Positions 12,462 to 25,390 of a stretch of 39,202 nucleotides of DNA are shown here, one piece after another. The number at the start of each line of letters is the position of its first letter. The first letter of the stretch is position 1. Location: positions 1 to 39,202 of the forward strand of contig JADZBU010000248.1 in the NCBI GenBank assembly GCA_020851955.1, read 5' to 3'. A program made the position numbers and the translations under genes. The notes beneath the pieces were generated by a model. That model was given only the letters and a program-made list of their open reading frames with translations, was not told the DNA's origin and ran no database searches. The stretch is from Chromatiaceae bacterium (GTDB lineage Bacteria; Pseudomonadota; Gammaproteobacteria; Chromatiales; Chromatiaceae).

Positions 12462-13856
12462 TCAGGAGAAGAGACGGTCGTAGATGCGGAAACCGGCGAC
12501 ATAGGTGCCGATGGCGGCCCCCAGGTTGCTCAGGAGGAAGACCTGGAGGATGCGCAGCACCCGGTTGCGCCACCAGCCCCGGAAGTGGGCCGCGTCCTGG
12601 CGCAGGCGGCCGAAGTCGCCCAGGTTGGGCTTGCGCAGATAGAGTTCCACCGGGGCCGTCACCATGCCGGCGCCGATGGCGGGGTTGAGGGTGGTCAGGG
12701 GCGCCGCGACGAAGGCCGTCAGCACCGTCAGGGGGTGCCCGCCGGCGAGGAGGGTGCCGATGGCGGAGAGGGAGCCGGTGATGAGGACCCAGTCCCAGAC
12801 GATGGACCAGCCGTCCTGGGGGCTCTGGGCAAAGCCGAAGGCGAAGCCGGCCAGAATGAGCGCCAGGATGAGCCAGGATATGAGCTTGGGCCAGGGGCTG
12901 GGCGGCGGCAGACGCTCCAGTGCCTCGATTTCGAGACGCGGGTCCGGGTCTGGCGCAGCGCGGGGCTCCAGGGGCGCCCCCGGGGTAGGGTCCGGGCTGG
13001 GTGCGGGCGCGGCCGCCCGCAGGTAGCCGGCGACGCCCTTGAGATGACCGGCCCCCAGGACCGCCAGTATCCGGCCGTGGCCATCCCGTTCGATCTCCTC
13101 CCGCAGGCGGGCCGCCATGTAGCGATCCCGCTCATCGATGAGCGGGAGGAAGAGGTCTTGGCGATTACGGGCGAATTCGGCGAAGGTGGTCTCCAGCACA
13201 TCCCCTTCCTTGAGGCGCTCGATCTCCGCCTCCGGGACCTCGTCGTGGGAGACCAGGGTTAAGACCAGGCCGGAAAAGAGTTCGAGGCGCTTCCACCAAC
13301 TCAGGTTGGCGGCGACGCGCTTGAGGGTCACGCCGATCTCGCGATCCACCAGCAGGACGGGCAGATGGCGTTCCCGCGCCTGGGCGATGGCCATGCGCTG
13401 CTCGGCCCCGGGTTCGATGCCGAACTGATCCGCCAGGCGCTGCTGGTAGGCGGCCAGGGCCAGGCTGGCGACTACCATGGCCACGCGTCCCTGGCGGATG
13501 ACGGCGAAGAGGTCCATGCGCGCCAGGGCGTCCGGGTCCAGGAGGGCCTGATAGCGGCTGGGGCAGAGCTCCACCGCCACGGCGTCATAGTCCTCCTGCT
13601 CCAGGAGTTCCCGCACTTTGTCGGCGCTGGCGCGGGAGACATGGGCGGTGCCGAGGAGGGTCAGGTGGGTGTCGCCGACCCTCAGATCGATGCGGGGCTC
13701 CTCGGGGCCCTGGCTGGCCTCGGGCGTCGGGGCTTGGCTGGGGCGGGCTTCGGCGAGGGATTGGCCGGGCCCGGCGATGGGTGGGGCGTCCTCGGCCAGC
13801 GGTTGCCGAGGAGCGTCGGGTCCTGGGTTGGCTTTCGCCTCGGCGTCCGGAGTCAT
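12462..13856 (-). CDS. TraB/PrgY family membrane protein
   Basis: [72 protein letters not shown]-terminal hydrophobic segments. Confidence 0.85.
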
Positions 13857-20223: not shown

Positions 20224-21507
20224 ATGACGGAAGTCGTCGCAACCAATGAGACCATTCTGGTGGTCGGTGGTGGCATCAGCGGCATGACCGCCGCTCTCGA
20301 GGCCGCCGAAACCGGCAAGCAGGTCGTACTCGTTGAAAAGCGTCCTTATCTGGGCGGCCGTGTCTCCCAACTCTACAAATATTTCCCGAAGCTCTGCTTC
20401 CCCACCTGCGGTCTGGAGATCAACCAGCGCCGCGCCAGGATGAATCCCAACCTCCGCGTCTTGACCATGGCCGAGGTTACGGGCATCAAGGGCGACAAGG
20501 GCAACTACACCGCCACCGTCAAGCTGTCCCCACGTTACGTCAACGGCAACTGCACCGCCTGCGGTGACTGCGAAAAGGCCGTCTCGGCGGAGTTCGACGA
20601 CGAGTACAACTATGGTCTCGGCAAGCGCAAGGGCGCCTATCTGCCCTACCGCATGGCCATGCCGACTCAGTATGTCATCGACCCGCGCCTCATCGGCACC
20701 GAGGAGGCTGACAAGGCCAAGGCGGCCTGCAAGTACGACGCCGTCGATCTGGAGATGCAAGAGGAGACCCTCGACTTCCCCTGCGGGGCCGTCATCTGGG
20801 CCACCGGCTGGCAGCCCTACGATGCCGCCAAGATTCAGCCCTACGGCTATGACCGCTTCCCCAATGTCATCACCTCCGTCGAGTTCGAGCGCCTGGCCGA
20901 CCCCCAGGGCCCGACCGGTGGCAAGTTGGTGCGTCCCTCAGATGGCAAGGAGGCGAAAAAGGTCGCCTTCATCCAATGCGCCGGCTCCCGTGACCGCAAT
21001 CATCTGCTGCACTGCTCGCGCATCTGCTGCATGGCCAGCCTCAAGCAATGCACCTATGTGGCCGATGCCTGGGGCGCCGAGGCCGAGGTGAGCGTCTATT
21101 ACATCGACATGCGCGCCATCGACCGCTTCGAGGACTTCTACGCCAAGGTGCGGGGTATCGAGCAGGTCAAGTTCATCAAGTCCAAGCCGGCCTCCGTGGT
21201 GGCGGATAAGGAGGGCAACCCGGTCGTCCATGGCGTCGATACGGAAGGCTACAAGCGCTTCGCCGATACCTTTGATCTGGTCGTGCTGGCCGTGGGCATG
21301 GAGCCCTCCGTGGACAAGGACAGCTTCCCGGTCGATATCGTCCTCAATCGCGAAGGCTTCATCGAGGCCGATCCAGGCAACGGCGGCGTCTTCGCCGCGG
21401 GTTGCGCCTCGGATGCGCTCGATGTGAACCGCGCCGTTCAGCATGCCACCGGCGCGGCGCTGCGCGCTATCCAGGTCGTCAACGGCGCCGCCGGAGTGGA
21501 GGGTTAA
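20224..21507 (+). CDS. qmoA: QmoA (HdrA-like flavoprotein, quinone-interacting membrane-bound oxidoreductase complex)
   Basis: ILVVGGGISGMTAALEAAETGKQVVLVEKRPYLGGRV, FPTCGLEINQRRARMNPNL, FIQCAGSRDRNHLLHCSRICCM, NGGVFAAGCASDALDVNRAVQHATGAA. Confidence 0.93.
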   Translation: MTEVVATNETILVVGGGISGMTAALEAAETGKQVVLVEKRPYLGGRVSQLYKYFPKLCFPTCGLEINQRRARMNPNLRVLTMAEVTGIKGDKGNYTATVKLSPRYVNGNCTACGDCEKAVSAEFDDEYNYGLGKRKGAYLPYRMAMPTQYVIDPRLIGTEEADKAKAACKYDAVDLEMQEETLDFPCGAVIWATGWQPYDAAKIQPYGYDRFPNVITSVEFERLADPQGPTGGKLVRPSDGKEAKKVAFIQCAGSRDRNHLLHCSRICCMASLKQCTYVADAWGAEAEVSVYYIDMRAIDRFEDFYAKVRGIEQVKFIKSKPASVVADKEGNPVVHGVDTEGYKRFADTFDLVVLAVGMEPSVDKDSFPVDIVLNREGFIEADPGNGGVFAAGCASDALDVNRAVQHATGAALRAIQVVNGAAGVEG

Positions 21508-21511
21508 TCAG

Positions 21512-23800
21512 ATGGCAGTAGATAAGAAATTCGCCGGCTACTTGTGCACCGGCTGCGGCATCGGCGAGCGCCTCGACGCCAAGCAACTGACCATGGTGGC
21601 CACGCGCGAAGGCAAGATGGCCTCCTGCAAGTCGCATCCCATGCTCTGCTCCGCCGAGGGCGTCCAGCTCATCCGTGACGATGTCGCCGCCGGTAACGCG
21701 ACCCACGTCATGATCGCCGCCTGCTCGCGCCGCGCCAAGATGGAGGCCTTCAACTTCACCGACATCGCCATGTCTCGCGCCAATCTGCGCGAGGGTGTCA
21801 TCTGGTTGCGCCCGGAGGGCGACGAGCACCAGGAGACCACCCAGGAGATGGCGGATGACTATGTGCGCATGGCCTGCGCCGAGGTCCGCTTCATGACGGT
21901 CCCCAGCGGCTCCGGCGAGCAAAGCCTGAACCGCAACCTGCTGGTGGTGGGAAATGGCGTCACCGCCATGGCCTCCGCCCTGGAGGCGGCCAAGGCCGGC
22001 TATGGCGTTCACCTGGTGTGCGACGAGGGGGTGCTGGGGGGCGTCTACAAGGACCTTTACAAGCGGGTGCCCTTCCGCGCCGCCCCCCCGGGGGTCTCCA
22101 ACGCCCGCACCGCCCCGCTGCCTCAGCCGGAGGAGCCCGGGATCGCTGAGATGATCGCCGAGGTCCAGGCTAACCCGCGCATCAGCGTCCATCTCAATGC
22201 CAAGGTCACCAAGACCTCCGGCGCGCCCGGTCGCTTCTCCGCCGATATCAGTACCGAGTCCGGCGGCACCGTCACCGAAAATATCGGTGCCATCGTCCAG
22301 GCCACCGACTACAAGCCCTACGACGCCAAGCGGTTGCCGGAGTTCGCTTACGGCAAGACCCCGGATGTGGTCACCAACTTCGAGATGGAGAAGTTGGCCA
22401 AGGCCGCCAACGGCGGGCCGCTGAAGCGCCCCTCCGATGGCAAGGAAGTCAAGGCCGTGGCCTTCATCCAGTGCGCCGGTCAGCGTTCCGAGCAGGAAGG
22501 GCATCTGCCCTACTGCTCGGGCTTCTGCTGCACCGAGTCCATCAAGCAGGCCATGTACTTCAAGGCCCAGAACCCGGATTGCGACGCCACGGTCCTCTTC
22601 GACGACCTGCGCACCCCGGGCGCCGCCGGCGAGGACTTTTACCGCGCCGGCCAGCAGGCCCAGGTCACCTTCTCCAAGGGCAAGGCCAGCGAGGTGGTGG
22701 TCGAGGGTGGCAAACTGACGGTCAAGTTCAAGGACCTGATCCTGAACGAGGATACGGCCATGGAGTGTGACCTGGTGGTGCTCGCCACCGGCCAGGTGCC
22801 CAACACGGGTCCGGACCCCTACGCCCAGTTGGCCGTGGACGAGGCCCCCACCGAGGAGGAAAAAGAGGCCGCCCGCCGGGCCCTGGCGGTCGCACCGCCG
22901 TCCATCCTCAACCTCGACTATCGTCAGGGCACCGACCTGCCGCAGCTCAAGCACGGCTTCGTCGATTCCCACTTCATCTGCTTCCCCTACGAGACTCGCC
23001 GCACCGGCATCTACGCCGCCGGTCCCGTCCGCCGGCCCATGGACATGAAGCAGGCCATCGATGACGCCGCTGGCGCCACCCTCAAGGCCATTCAGGCCGC
23101 CGAGAACGCCGCCTTGGGCGCTGGCGCCCATCCGCGGGTTGGGGACCTCTCCTACCCGACCTTCCGCAAGGAAGGCTGCACCCAGTGCAAGCGTTGTACC
23201 GTGGAATGCCCCTTTGGCGCCATCAACGAGGACGAGCAGAAGTATCCTCAGTTCAACGAGGCCCGCTGTCGCCGTTGCGGCACCTGCATGGGTGCCTGCC
23301 CGGTACGCGTCATCTCCTTCGAGAACTATTCCATCGAGACCGTCGGCCAGCAGATCAAGGCCGTGGATGTGCCGGACGAATTCTCGGAGAAGCCGCGCCT
23401 CCTGGTCCTGGCCTGCGAGAATGACGCCTACCCGGCCCTGGACATGGCCGCCCAGGCCGGCGGGTCCACCATCAGCCCCTTCGCCCGCGTCATACCGGTG
23501 CGCTGCCTGGGTTCGGTGAACCTGAACTGGATCACGGACGCCCTCAACTCCGGCTATGACGGCATCATCCTCATGGGCTGCCGTCGCGATGACGACTACC
23601 AGTGTCACTTCGTGCGCGGTTCCAAGATGGCCGCCGAGCGGCTGAGCAAGGTCGGCGATACCCTCCAGCAGCTCAGGCTGGAGACCGAGCGCGTCGTGGT
23701 TTACGAGGTCGCCATCACCGACGTCCAGCGTGTGCCGCTGTTGATCAACGACATGGCCGCGACGGTCGAAAAGATCGGCATGAGCCCCTTCAAGTTCTGA
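21512..23800 (+). CDS. qmoB: QmoB (HdrA-like flavoprotein with 4Fe-4S clusters and MvhD-like C-terminal domain)
   Basis: YLCTGCGIGERLDA, LLVVGNGVTAMASALEAA, CTQCKRCTVECPFGAINED, CRRCGTCMGACPVRVIS, MvhD-like IPVRCLGSVNLNWITDALNSGYDGIILMGCRRDDDYQC. Confidence 0.93.
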   Translation: MAVDKKFAGYLCTGCGIGERLDAKQLTMVATREGKMASCKSHPMLCSAEGVQLIRDDVAAGNATHVMIAACSRRAKMEAFNFTDIAMSRANLREGVIWLRPEGDEHQETTQEMADDYVRMACAEVRFMTVPSGSGEQSLNRNLLVVGNGVTAMASALEAAKAGYGVHLVCDEGVLGGVYKDLYKRVPFRAAPPGVSNARTAPLPQPEEPGIAEMIAEVQANPRISVHLNAKVTKTSGAPGRFSADISTESGGTVTENIGAIVQATDYKPYDAKRLPEFAYGKTPDVVTNFEMEKLAKAANGGPLKRPSDGKEVKAVAFIQCAGQRSEQEGHLPYCSGFCCTESIKQAMYFKAQNPDCDATVLFDDLRTPGAAGEDFYRAGQQAQVTFSKGKASEVVVEGGKLTVKFKDLILNEDTAMECDLVVLATGQVPNTGPDPYAQLAVDEAPTEEEKEAARRALAVAPPSILNLDYRQGTDLPQLKHGFVDSHFICFPYETRRTGIYAAGPVRRPMDMKQAIDDAAGATLKAIQAAENAALGAGAHPRVGDLSYPTFRKEGCTQCKRCTVECPFGAINEDEQKYPQFNEARCRRCGTCMGACPVRVISFENYSIETVGQQIKAVDVPDEFSEKPRLLVLACENDAYPALDMAAQAGGSTISPFARVIPVRCLGSVNLNWITDALNSGYDGIILMGCRRDDDYQCHFVRGSKMAAERLSKVGDTLQQLRLETERVVVYEVAITDVQRVPLLINDMAATVEKIGMSPFKF

Positions 23801-23850
23801 CGAGCCTGGGGCGCGCGGCGACCGCGCGCCCCACGAGAGGAATACCGACA

Positions 23851-24477
23851 ATGAGCGATCTGAACACGGCGATGATCGAAAGGTATCGCACCAACTTCCT
23901 CAAGGAGGTGGAGGCGAATGTCGAGGAGGGCGAGTGGGTCAAGATGTGCATGCAATGCGGCGTGTGCTCCGGCTCCTGCCCCCTGGGCAAGTTCTGGGCC
24001 CACCCGCCCCAGGAAATTTTCATGATGATCCGCGCCGGCAAGCGCGAGGAGGTCCTGTCCTCCGACTCCATGTGGATGTGCACCTCCTGCTACAACTGCA
24101 TCGTGCGCTGCCCCCGGGAACTGCCCATCACCCACATCATGCATGGCCTGGCCAGCTACGCCAAGCGCCTCGGCCTGGTGGCGGCGAACCAGCCCACGGC
24201 CAAGTTTGCCCAACTATTCTGGAATAACCTCATGAAGAAGGGCCGGGTCAACGAGCTCAAGCTCGGCCTGGCGCTCTACTTTATGAACGGCTTTGGCGAG
24301 GGCATCAAGATCGCCCTCAAGAAGCAGAAGCTGGGCATGAACATGATGAAGACCGGCCGCATGAACCCCATGGAGATCCTCGGCGGTCATGCCGTCAAGG
24401 ATCTGAGCGGCTTCCAGAAGGTCATCCAGAAGGCCCAGGAACTGGAAGACGCCCGTATTGCCAAGCACGGCGCTTGA
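23851..24477 (+). CDS. hdrC: HdrC-like 4Fe-4S protein
   Basis: CMQCGVCSGSCPLGK and CTSCYNCIVRCPREL; no QmoC-type transmembrane domain. Confidence 0.88.
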   Translation: MSDLNTAMIERYRTNFLKEVEANVEEGEWVKMCMQCGVCSGSCPLGKFWAHPPQEIFMMIRAGKREEVLSSDSMWMCTSCYNCIVRCPRELPITHIMHGLASYAKRLGLVAANQPTAKFAQLFWNNLMKKGRVNELKLGLALYFMNGFGEGIKIALKKQKLGMNMMKTGRMNPMEILGGHAVKDLSGFQKVIQKAQELEDARIAKHGA

Positions 24478-24490
24478 GGAGAAGACATCC

Positions 24491-25390
24491 ATGGCTAAGC
24501 GAGAATATTCCTTCTATCCCGGCTGCTCTTCCCAGAAGGGTGCCTCCTCCTCCAACTATCTGGTCTCGGTCCAGACCATGTGCCAGGAACTCGAGATCCA
24601 GCTCAATGAGATCCCGGACTGGAACTGCTGCGCCGCCTCCATCGGCTATGGCGGTGGTGGGGAACTGCCCCGTCTGACCCTGTCGGCGCGCAATATCGCC
24701 CTCTCCGAGCAGCACAACGCGGGTCAGGACATCGTCGCCACCTGCGCCGCCTGCTGGCTCTCCACCCGCGAGGCCGCCGAACGCCTGCACGAGGATCAGT
24801 CCCTGCTGGCCGAGTGCAACACCGCCCTGGCGGAGGCCGGTCTCAAGCTCAGGAACCAGACCCCCATCAAGCACATGGCCGAGGTGCTCATTGAGGATAT
24901 CGGTCTCGAGGCCATCGCCGCCAAGGTCAAGAAGCCCTTGGAGGGCATCAAGATCGCGGGCTATGTGGGCTGCCAGACCAACCGACCCTTCGGCATCGCC
25001 GGTGAGTCCTTCGAGAATCCCCAGTATCTCGACAAGCTGGTCGAGGCCCTGGGCGGCGACTCCCTCCCCGGCTACGAAAAGAAGGTGCAATGCTGCGGTG
25101 GCGCCCTGGCCTTCTCCGAACCGGCCAAGTCCCAGGAGATGGTCAAGGGTATCATCGAGTCCGCCTATGACCATGGCGCCGACCTCATCGTCACCCCCTG
25201 CCCCGTGTGCCAGATGAACGTCGAAATCTATCAGGACGAGATCAACGCCACCTACGGCACCCAGTTCAAGATGCCCGTGGTTTATTACTCGAACCTCATG
25301 GCCGTCGCCTTTGGTCGCAGCGCCAAGGACGCCGCGCTCAACAGCCAGATCATCGCCGCCAAGGCCCTGGATGAACTGGCGGCCAAATAG
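24491..25390 (+). CDS. hdrB: HdrB-like protein with two CCG domains
   Basis: FYPGCSSQ…NCCAASIG…CAAC and GYVGCQTNRPFG…QCCGGALAFSEP…CPVC. Confidence 0.9.
   Translation: MAKREYSFYPGCSSQKGASSSNYLVSVQTMCQELEIQLNEIPDWNCCAASIGYGGGGELPRLTLSARNIALSEQHNAGQDIVATCAACWLSTREAAERLHEDQSLLAECNTALAEAGLKLRNQTPIKHMAEVLIEDIGLEAIAAKVKKPLEGIKIAGYVGCQTNRPFGIAGESFENPQYLDKLVEALGGDSLPGYEKKVQCCGGALAFSEPAKSQEMVKGIIESAYDHGADLIVTPCPVCQMNVEIYQDEINATYGTQFKMPVVYYSNLMAVAFGRSAKDAALNSQIIAAKALDELAAK

Follow-up and report, generated by a model that had tools for sequence, protein, structure and literature searches.

The qmoAB-hdrCB cluster of a Chromatiaceae sulfur oxidiser and its probable coupling to an unlinked lineage II APS reductase

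The window analysed here, a 39,202-nt stretch of contig C248 (JADZBU010000248.1) from a Chromatiaceae genome of 4.26 Mb in 475 contigs (89% complete), carries four intact, co-directional open reading frames in the order qmoA-qmoB-hdrC-hdrB (Table 1). Each of them begins with an ATG preceded by a purine-rich stretch, the gaps between them measure 4, 50 and 13 nt, and the stem-loop that closes the series, proposed as a terminator in the first-pass annotation, folds with -33 kcal/mol (65-nt stretch folded). The neighbours named at that stage (an EF-G gene, there called a paralogue, a YdcH or DUF465 protein and rfaH) agree with the domain matches obtained, and the EF-G and DUF465 genes are common to the nearest relatives. 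Among named organisms, the best matches come from Candidatus Thiosymbion and other Chromatiaceae.

Table 1. Features of the cluster in the window, with examples from other loci (L, locus) of a protein that comes after aprBA
Feature	Position	Strand	Description	Basis
qmoA	20224..21507	+	HdrA-type FAD/4Fe-4S subunit, 427 aa	NCBIfam/Pfam
qmoB	21512..23800	+	HdrA-type with two 4Fe-4S motifs and C-terminal FlpD/MvhD domain, 762 aa	NCBIfam/Pfam
hdrC	23851..24477	+	Soluble di-[4Fe-4S] subunit, 208 aa; like the N-terminal part of QmoC only	
hdrB	24491..25390	+	Soluble, two CCG domains, 299 aa	NCBIfam/Pfam
Stem-loop	25438..25480	+	Intrinsic-terminator-like stem-loop, then T-run	Folding
CxxCxxCC protein	L088:3679-4587, L133:9636-10529, L046:16299-17240		YkgJ-like, PF03692; examples	

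QmoA matches the HdrA2 model with 362 bits (NCBIfam/Pfam), and its cysteines 58, 62, 110, 113, 116, 169, 252, 264, 268 and 269 are invariant in 80 aligned sequences. The same is true of the ferredoxin and MvhD-domain cysteines of QmoB (70 aligned sequences) and of all eight cysteines of HdrC (67 aligned sequences). In HdrB, C12/C46-C47/C85/C88 and C161/C201-C202/C237/C240 are invariant among 65 aligned sequences, and their spacing (C-X33-CC-X37-C-X2-C and C-X39-CC-X34-C-X2-C) yields two complete sets of the kind typical of noncubane clusters. Two complete CCG motifs are the mark of the HdrB family, and heterodisulfide reduction is here a possible activity. At the HdrA-type cluster site of QmoB, cysteines 321, 335, 339 and 340 occur in 26 of 70 sequences, the type found in the window included, and are replaced by NHGD, NFTD or DDGD in the other 44, whose operons are otherwise intact; a cofactor difference inside one clade is the probable meaning of this pattern.

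A simple Kyte-Doolittle hydropathy scan predicted no transmembrane helix in QmoA, QmoB, HdrC or HdrB, and HdrC matches the QmoC model over its N-terminal 88 of 360 positions only, scoring 46.5-47.8 bits against a cut-off of 300. Because its coverage ends there, the haem-b domain of QmoC can be taken as truly absent, and the separate, soluble nature first ascribed to HdrC and HdrB stands. In the host genome (89% complete) nothing exceeded the cut-off of the QmoC model, the sub-cut-off matches being HdrC itself and a hydrogenase-linked membrane protein on contig C170. The latter was rejected as a hidden qmoC, given its score of only 24.7 bits and its neighbours, a NiFe-hydrogenase large subunit and a DsrK/HmcF-like protein. 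This region (G000:C170, L127:1501-5491) encodes DsrK/HmcF-like and TmcC/HmcE-like proteins beside a hydrogenase large subunit, and we take these to resemble Isp1/Isp2 hydrogenase partners. The lack of a transmembrane helix and of a qmoC above cut-off supports the view of the cluster as a Qmo/Hdr hybrid without a membrane subunit of its own.

The QmoC model retrieved no true QmoC across 146 family and 398 phylum genomes, which leaves the search without a true positive control; it did pick up distant membrane relatives in the 398 phylum genomes (76-132 bits, all under the cut-off), which look TcuB-like, judging from their length and coverage. The 2013 description of AprM reported no resemblance to known domains (PMC3779200), yet the AprM at L131:5465-6310 gives a weak match to the membrane portion of the QmoC model (38 bits, positions 156-357).

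A genome-wide search for aprBA, aprM, qmoC and sat, as the first-pass annotation had advised, recovered aprBA on contig C145 (AprA scoring 905.7 bits to TIGR02061 and AprB lying over its cut-off) and sat on contig C94, and neither aprM nor a qmoC above cut-off; in particular, no aprM was found upstream of the host aprBA or anywhere in the genome. The host AprB carries the loop KGQDK. A further contig, C59, holds dsrABEFHCM and a partial dsrK cut by the contig end. DsrEFH, which mark the sulfur-oxidising Dsr pathway, were recognised over their cut-offs on this contig, and the host belongs to the sulfur-oxidising Chromatiaceae with reverse-Dsr. The absence of APS reductase genes reported at first holds for the surroundings of the cluster, where the scan of window genes (about 15-29 kb) revealed neither apr nor sat and model searches placed aprA and sat on other contigs only, but is ruled out for the genome by the presence of aprBA, sat and dsr. 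Since these genes lie on other contigs, the "missing" partners are simply unlinked. Of two marks of canonical QmoABC, neither adjacency to aprBA (C248 as opposed to C145) nor a QmoC with a haem-b transmembrane domain (no match above cut-off) is found in this genome.

Among the relatives, taken as the best 80 matches of one contig scan and all gammaproteobacterial by title, 62 extend far enough downstream to be informative, and 61 of these keep hdrC-hdrB after qmoAB. In the one that does not, L016 (Thiocystis violacea), the whole of hdrC and the last part of qmoB are missing around 13339-13564, a gap that reflects either a deletion or an assembly error. A stray internal qmoB fragment downstream of an intact operon (L009:17336-17630) is probably duplication debris. 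In 13 of the best 80 loci, aprBA lies 2.3-5.4 kb downstream of the cluster on the opposite strand. Downstream sequence reaches at least 6.5 kb in 31 loci, which include 10 of these 13. Several neighbour families recur beside the cluster (8-23 loci each among the best 80, judged by representative sequence only), and no recurrent membrane or soluble redox partner was obvious in these loci apart from an aprBA-associated CxxCxxCC protein. This protein comes after lineage II aprBA in the host genome and in several others (Table 1).

Across the 146 genomes of the family set, QmoA, called at an identity of at least 63%, is present in 73. The AprB proteins form two groups, one 68-100% identical to the host AprB (lineage II) and the other 51-58% (lineage I). 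AprB-II occurs in 66 of the 73 genomes with QmoA versus 16 of the 73 without it (p 9e-18, kinship ignored), and AprB-I accompanies AprM in 55 of 56 genomes, one AprM standing alone, while no genome devoid of AprM has AprB-I (kinship likewise ignored). QmoA therefore tracks the SRB-type AprB and AprM the other type, and the host genome conforms in combining QmoAB-HdrBC with SRB-type (lineage II) AprBA. Seven genomes, four of which reach a completeness of 91% or more, have QmoA but no detected AprB-II. Some family genomes are incomplete: G132, tabled as lacking QmoA, contains a 72%-identical fragment of qmoB and was counted as Qmo-positive in the loop comparison below. AprBA-II is kept without qmoA and qmoB in G009, G049, G063, G070, G083, G087, G097, G101, G102, G110, G121 and G144, and its persistence in about a dozen genomes suggests that it is able to exist without QmoAB. 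Nine of these twelve also carry AprB-I and AprM; in G009, G083 and G097 no AprM was detected.

Using homology models, Meyer and Kuever proposed in 2008 that a charged loop of lineage II AprB, KGx[D/E][K/R], serves as the dock for Qmo (PMC2211403). We scored this loop as KGQD[K/R]T, a motif whose core was published beforehand and whose exact form was set after the first sequences had been viewed. All 67 AprB-II proteins from Qmo-positive genomes have the loop intact, versus one of the 12 from genomes without qmoA and qmoB (Fisher p 1e-12, on counts that are not phylogenetically independent). Three Qmo-lacking genomes (73-87% complete), all with an intact loop, were set aside as possibly incomplete, and two of the twelve retained are 88-89% complete; a second AprB-II copy of G035, also off-motif, was left out. 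The departures include KSQAMT (seen in G063), KSRDKA, IDRDMT, EGRPEA, KGQGKT and KGQDKA, several of which represent a single-residue change, and KGQDKA (three cases) differs at the last position only, outside the published motif. Examples of the loop are found at L096 (host genome) and in family genomes (compare L133, L135, L136 and L145).

Outside the loop, AprB shows 0.181 changes per column in the absence of Qmo versus 0.091 in its presence, and part of the loop decay is thus general relaxation, since the remainder of the protein is about twice as diverged without Qmo. Within the loop, changes per column rise from 0.025 in Qmo-positive to 0.333 in Qmo-lacking genomes, and no other AprB window of equal conservation is affected as strongly. 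In a divergence-matched control, not one of 2120 Qmo-positive pairs showed a loop difference, whereas 10 of the 11 Qmo-lacking rows falling in the same bins did; the twelfth such row, G102, is 2% diverged elsewhere and its loop also differs. The AprB tree, built with the loop columns in and with many weak branches, implies at least eight changes of Qmo label when incomplete genomes are included, six being forced by well-supported branches, and the twelve Qmo-lacking rows fall by eye in about six branches. No earlier account of this decay was found in the literature searched, which took in few subscription journals. The coincidence of QmoAB absence with the decay of the proposed dock provides independent support for the interaction put forward in 2008 from homology models (PMC2211403), and the loop comparison points to residues worth mutating.

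The linkage to aprBA in relatives, the co-occurrence of QmoA with AprB-II and the decay of the loop without Qmo make the cluster a likely electron acceptor of APS reductase. On this comparative evidence, QmoAB-HdrCB is very probably coupled to AprBA, accepting its electrons during sulfite oxidation, a degree of confidence that applies to the coupling and does not extend to the exit of electrons after HdrB. An oxidative direction, raised as a possibility in the first-pass annotation, is the most likely one for the hybrid. In the scheme we favor, AprBA would convert sulfite and AMP into APS, Sat would turn APS into sulfate, and a cytoplasmic QmoA-QmoB-HdrC-HdrB complex would take the electrons from this SRB-type (lineage II) AprBA. 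The KGQD[K/R]T loop would be the site by which AprB docks on QmoAB, and the electrons would travel through the flavin, ferredoxin and MvhD modules of QmoB to HdrC and on to HdrB, from which, as a best guess, they would pass by way of an unlinked membrane protein into the quinone pool. That the cluster is instead unlinked to APS reductase and serves some other redox reaction might be suggested by the lack of an adjacent aprBA and by the seven genomes with QmoA in which AprB-II was not detected, but the co-occurrence, the linkage in 13 relatives and the loop decay all argue to the contrary and render it highly improbable.

The course of electrons beyond HdrB admits several readings. Because HdrB keeps both complete CCG ligand sets, a disulfide, quinone via an unlinked membrane protein and bifurcation are all possible, and the literature calls the route unclear and mentions bifurcation as a hypothesis (PMC4949241, PMC8269255). 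The main alternative to quinone is a disulfide acceptor: in the manner of a heterodisulfide reductase, the electrons of APS reductase would leave at the two CCG clusters of HdrB towards a soluble disulfide, such as DsrC or a low-molecular-weight thiol. Such an exit would agree with cysteine sets that are complete and invariant in the 65 aligned HdrB sequences, with the alignment of HdrB over nearly its whole length to the HdrB of solved HdrABC complexes, and with the absence of a membrane subunit from the cluster. Nonetheless, no thiol-partner gene stood out near the cluster in the best 80 loci, and QmoAB-HdrBC seems to replace the membrane protein AprM (co-occurrence, 146 genomes; PMC11237559), so that this exit seems conceivable, if rather unlikely. 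In a flavin-based bifurcation or confurcation, one acceptor of high and one of low potential (ferredoxin or NAD) would share the electrons from sulfite. The Qmo of Ca. Thiosymbion oneisti has been suggested to work in this way (PMC8269255), and QmoA and QmoB are HdrA-type flavoproteins with ferredoxin and MvhD domains, the modules of the bifurcating HdrABC-MvhD. This reading nevertheless appears quite improbable, as the neighbourhood of the cluster in the best 80 loci offered no conspicuous partner linked to ferredoxin or NAD and the HdrA-type cluster cysteines are absent from 44 of 70 QmoB of the same operon. A combined reading, in which sulfite electrons reach a disulfide at HdrB (or ferredoxin or NAD) without quinone and KGQD[K/R]T is the dock whose decay recurs when the complex is missing, appears unlikely; if true, the final oxidation in sulfur metabolism would follow a soluble path that does not depend on quinone. 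The identity of the acceptor after HdrB is a question common to all QmoAB-HdrBC organisms.

The locus itself represents a conserved and already published arrangement. A QmoAB-HdrBC lying apart from aprAB was already on record from Thiolapillus brandeum in 2014 (PMC4136832), and sulfur oxidisers are said to carry either QmoAB-HdrBC or AprM (PMC10504309, PMC11237559). The cultured purple sulfur bacterium Thiocystis violascens is reported to hold Sat, AprBA and Qmo at separate loci (PMC3779200). In the first-pass annotation, membership of the genes in a characterised QmoAB-HdrCB group from the same lineage was named as a ground for refuting its reading, and such membership is essentially what was found (PMC4136832, PMC11237559). 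Since the cluster is known and its likely partner APS reductase is encoded elsewhere in the genome, the finding is largely ordinary.

The closest systems are those of T. brandeum Hiromi 1 (PMC4136832) and of symbiotic sulfur oxidisers (PMC11237559), in which qmoAB is also followed by separate hdrB and hdrC, unlinked to aprAB, in genomes with Dsr and sat and no qmoC; we see no essential difference beyond the genus, and a T. brandeum MAG (L076) figures among the relatives with a QmoA 76% identical. Canonical QmoABC (Desulfovibrio, Chlorobaculum) shares QmoA and QmoB, and HdrC resembles the N-terminal part of its QmoC, but the cluster described here lacks the haem-b membrane domain, adds HdrB and is not adjacent to aprBA. 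In Gram-positive sulfate reducers QmoC is likewise absent and HdrBC present (PMC3569383), but in the Desulfotomaculum ruminis type qmoBA adjoins aprAB and is believed to run reductively, whereas the present cluster is apart from aprBA and most likely oxidative. AprM, associated with the lineage I APS reductase of Allochromatium vinosum (PMC3779200), is thought to perform the same job of accepting APS reductase electrons, but sits in the membrane and goes with the other AprB type, as opposed to a soluble cluster. Finally, the HdrABC-MvhAGD complex of methanogens (PDB 5odc) draws on the same HdrA, HdrB, HdrC and MvhD families together with a hydrogenase that has no counterpart in this cluster, where the HdrA-type modules are spread over QmoA and QmoB.
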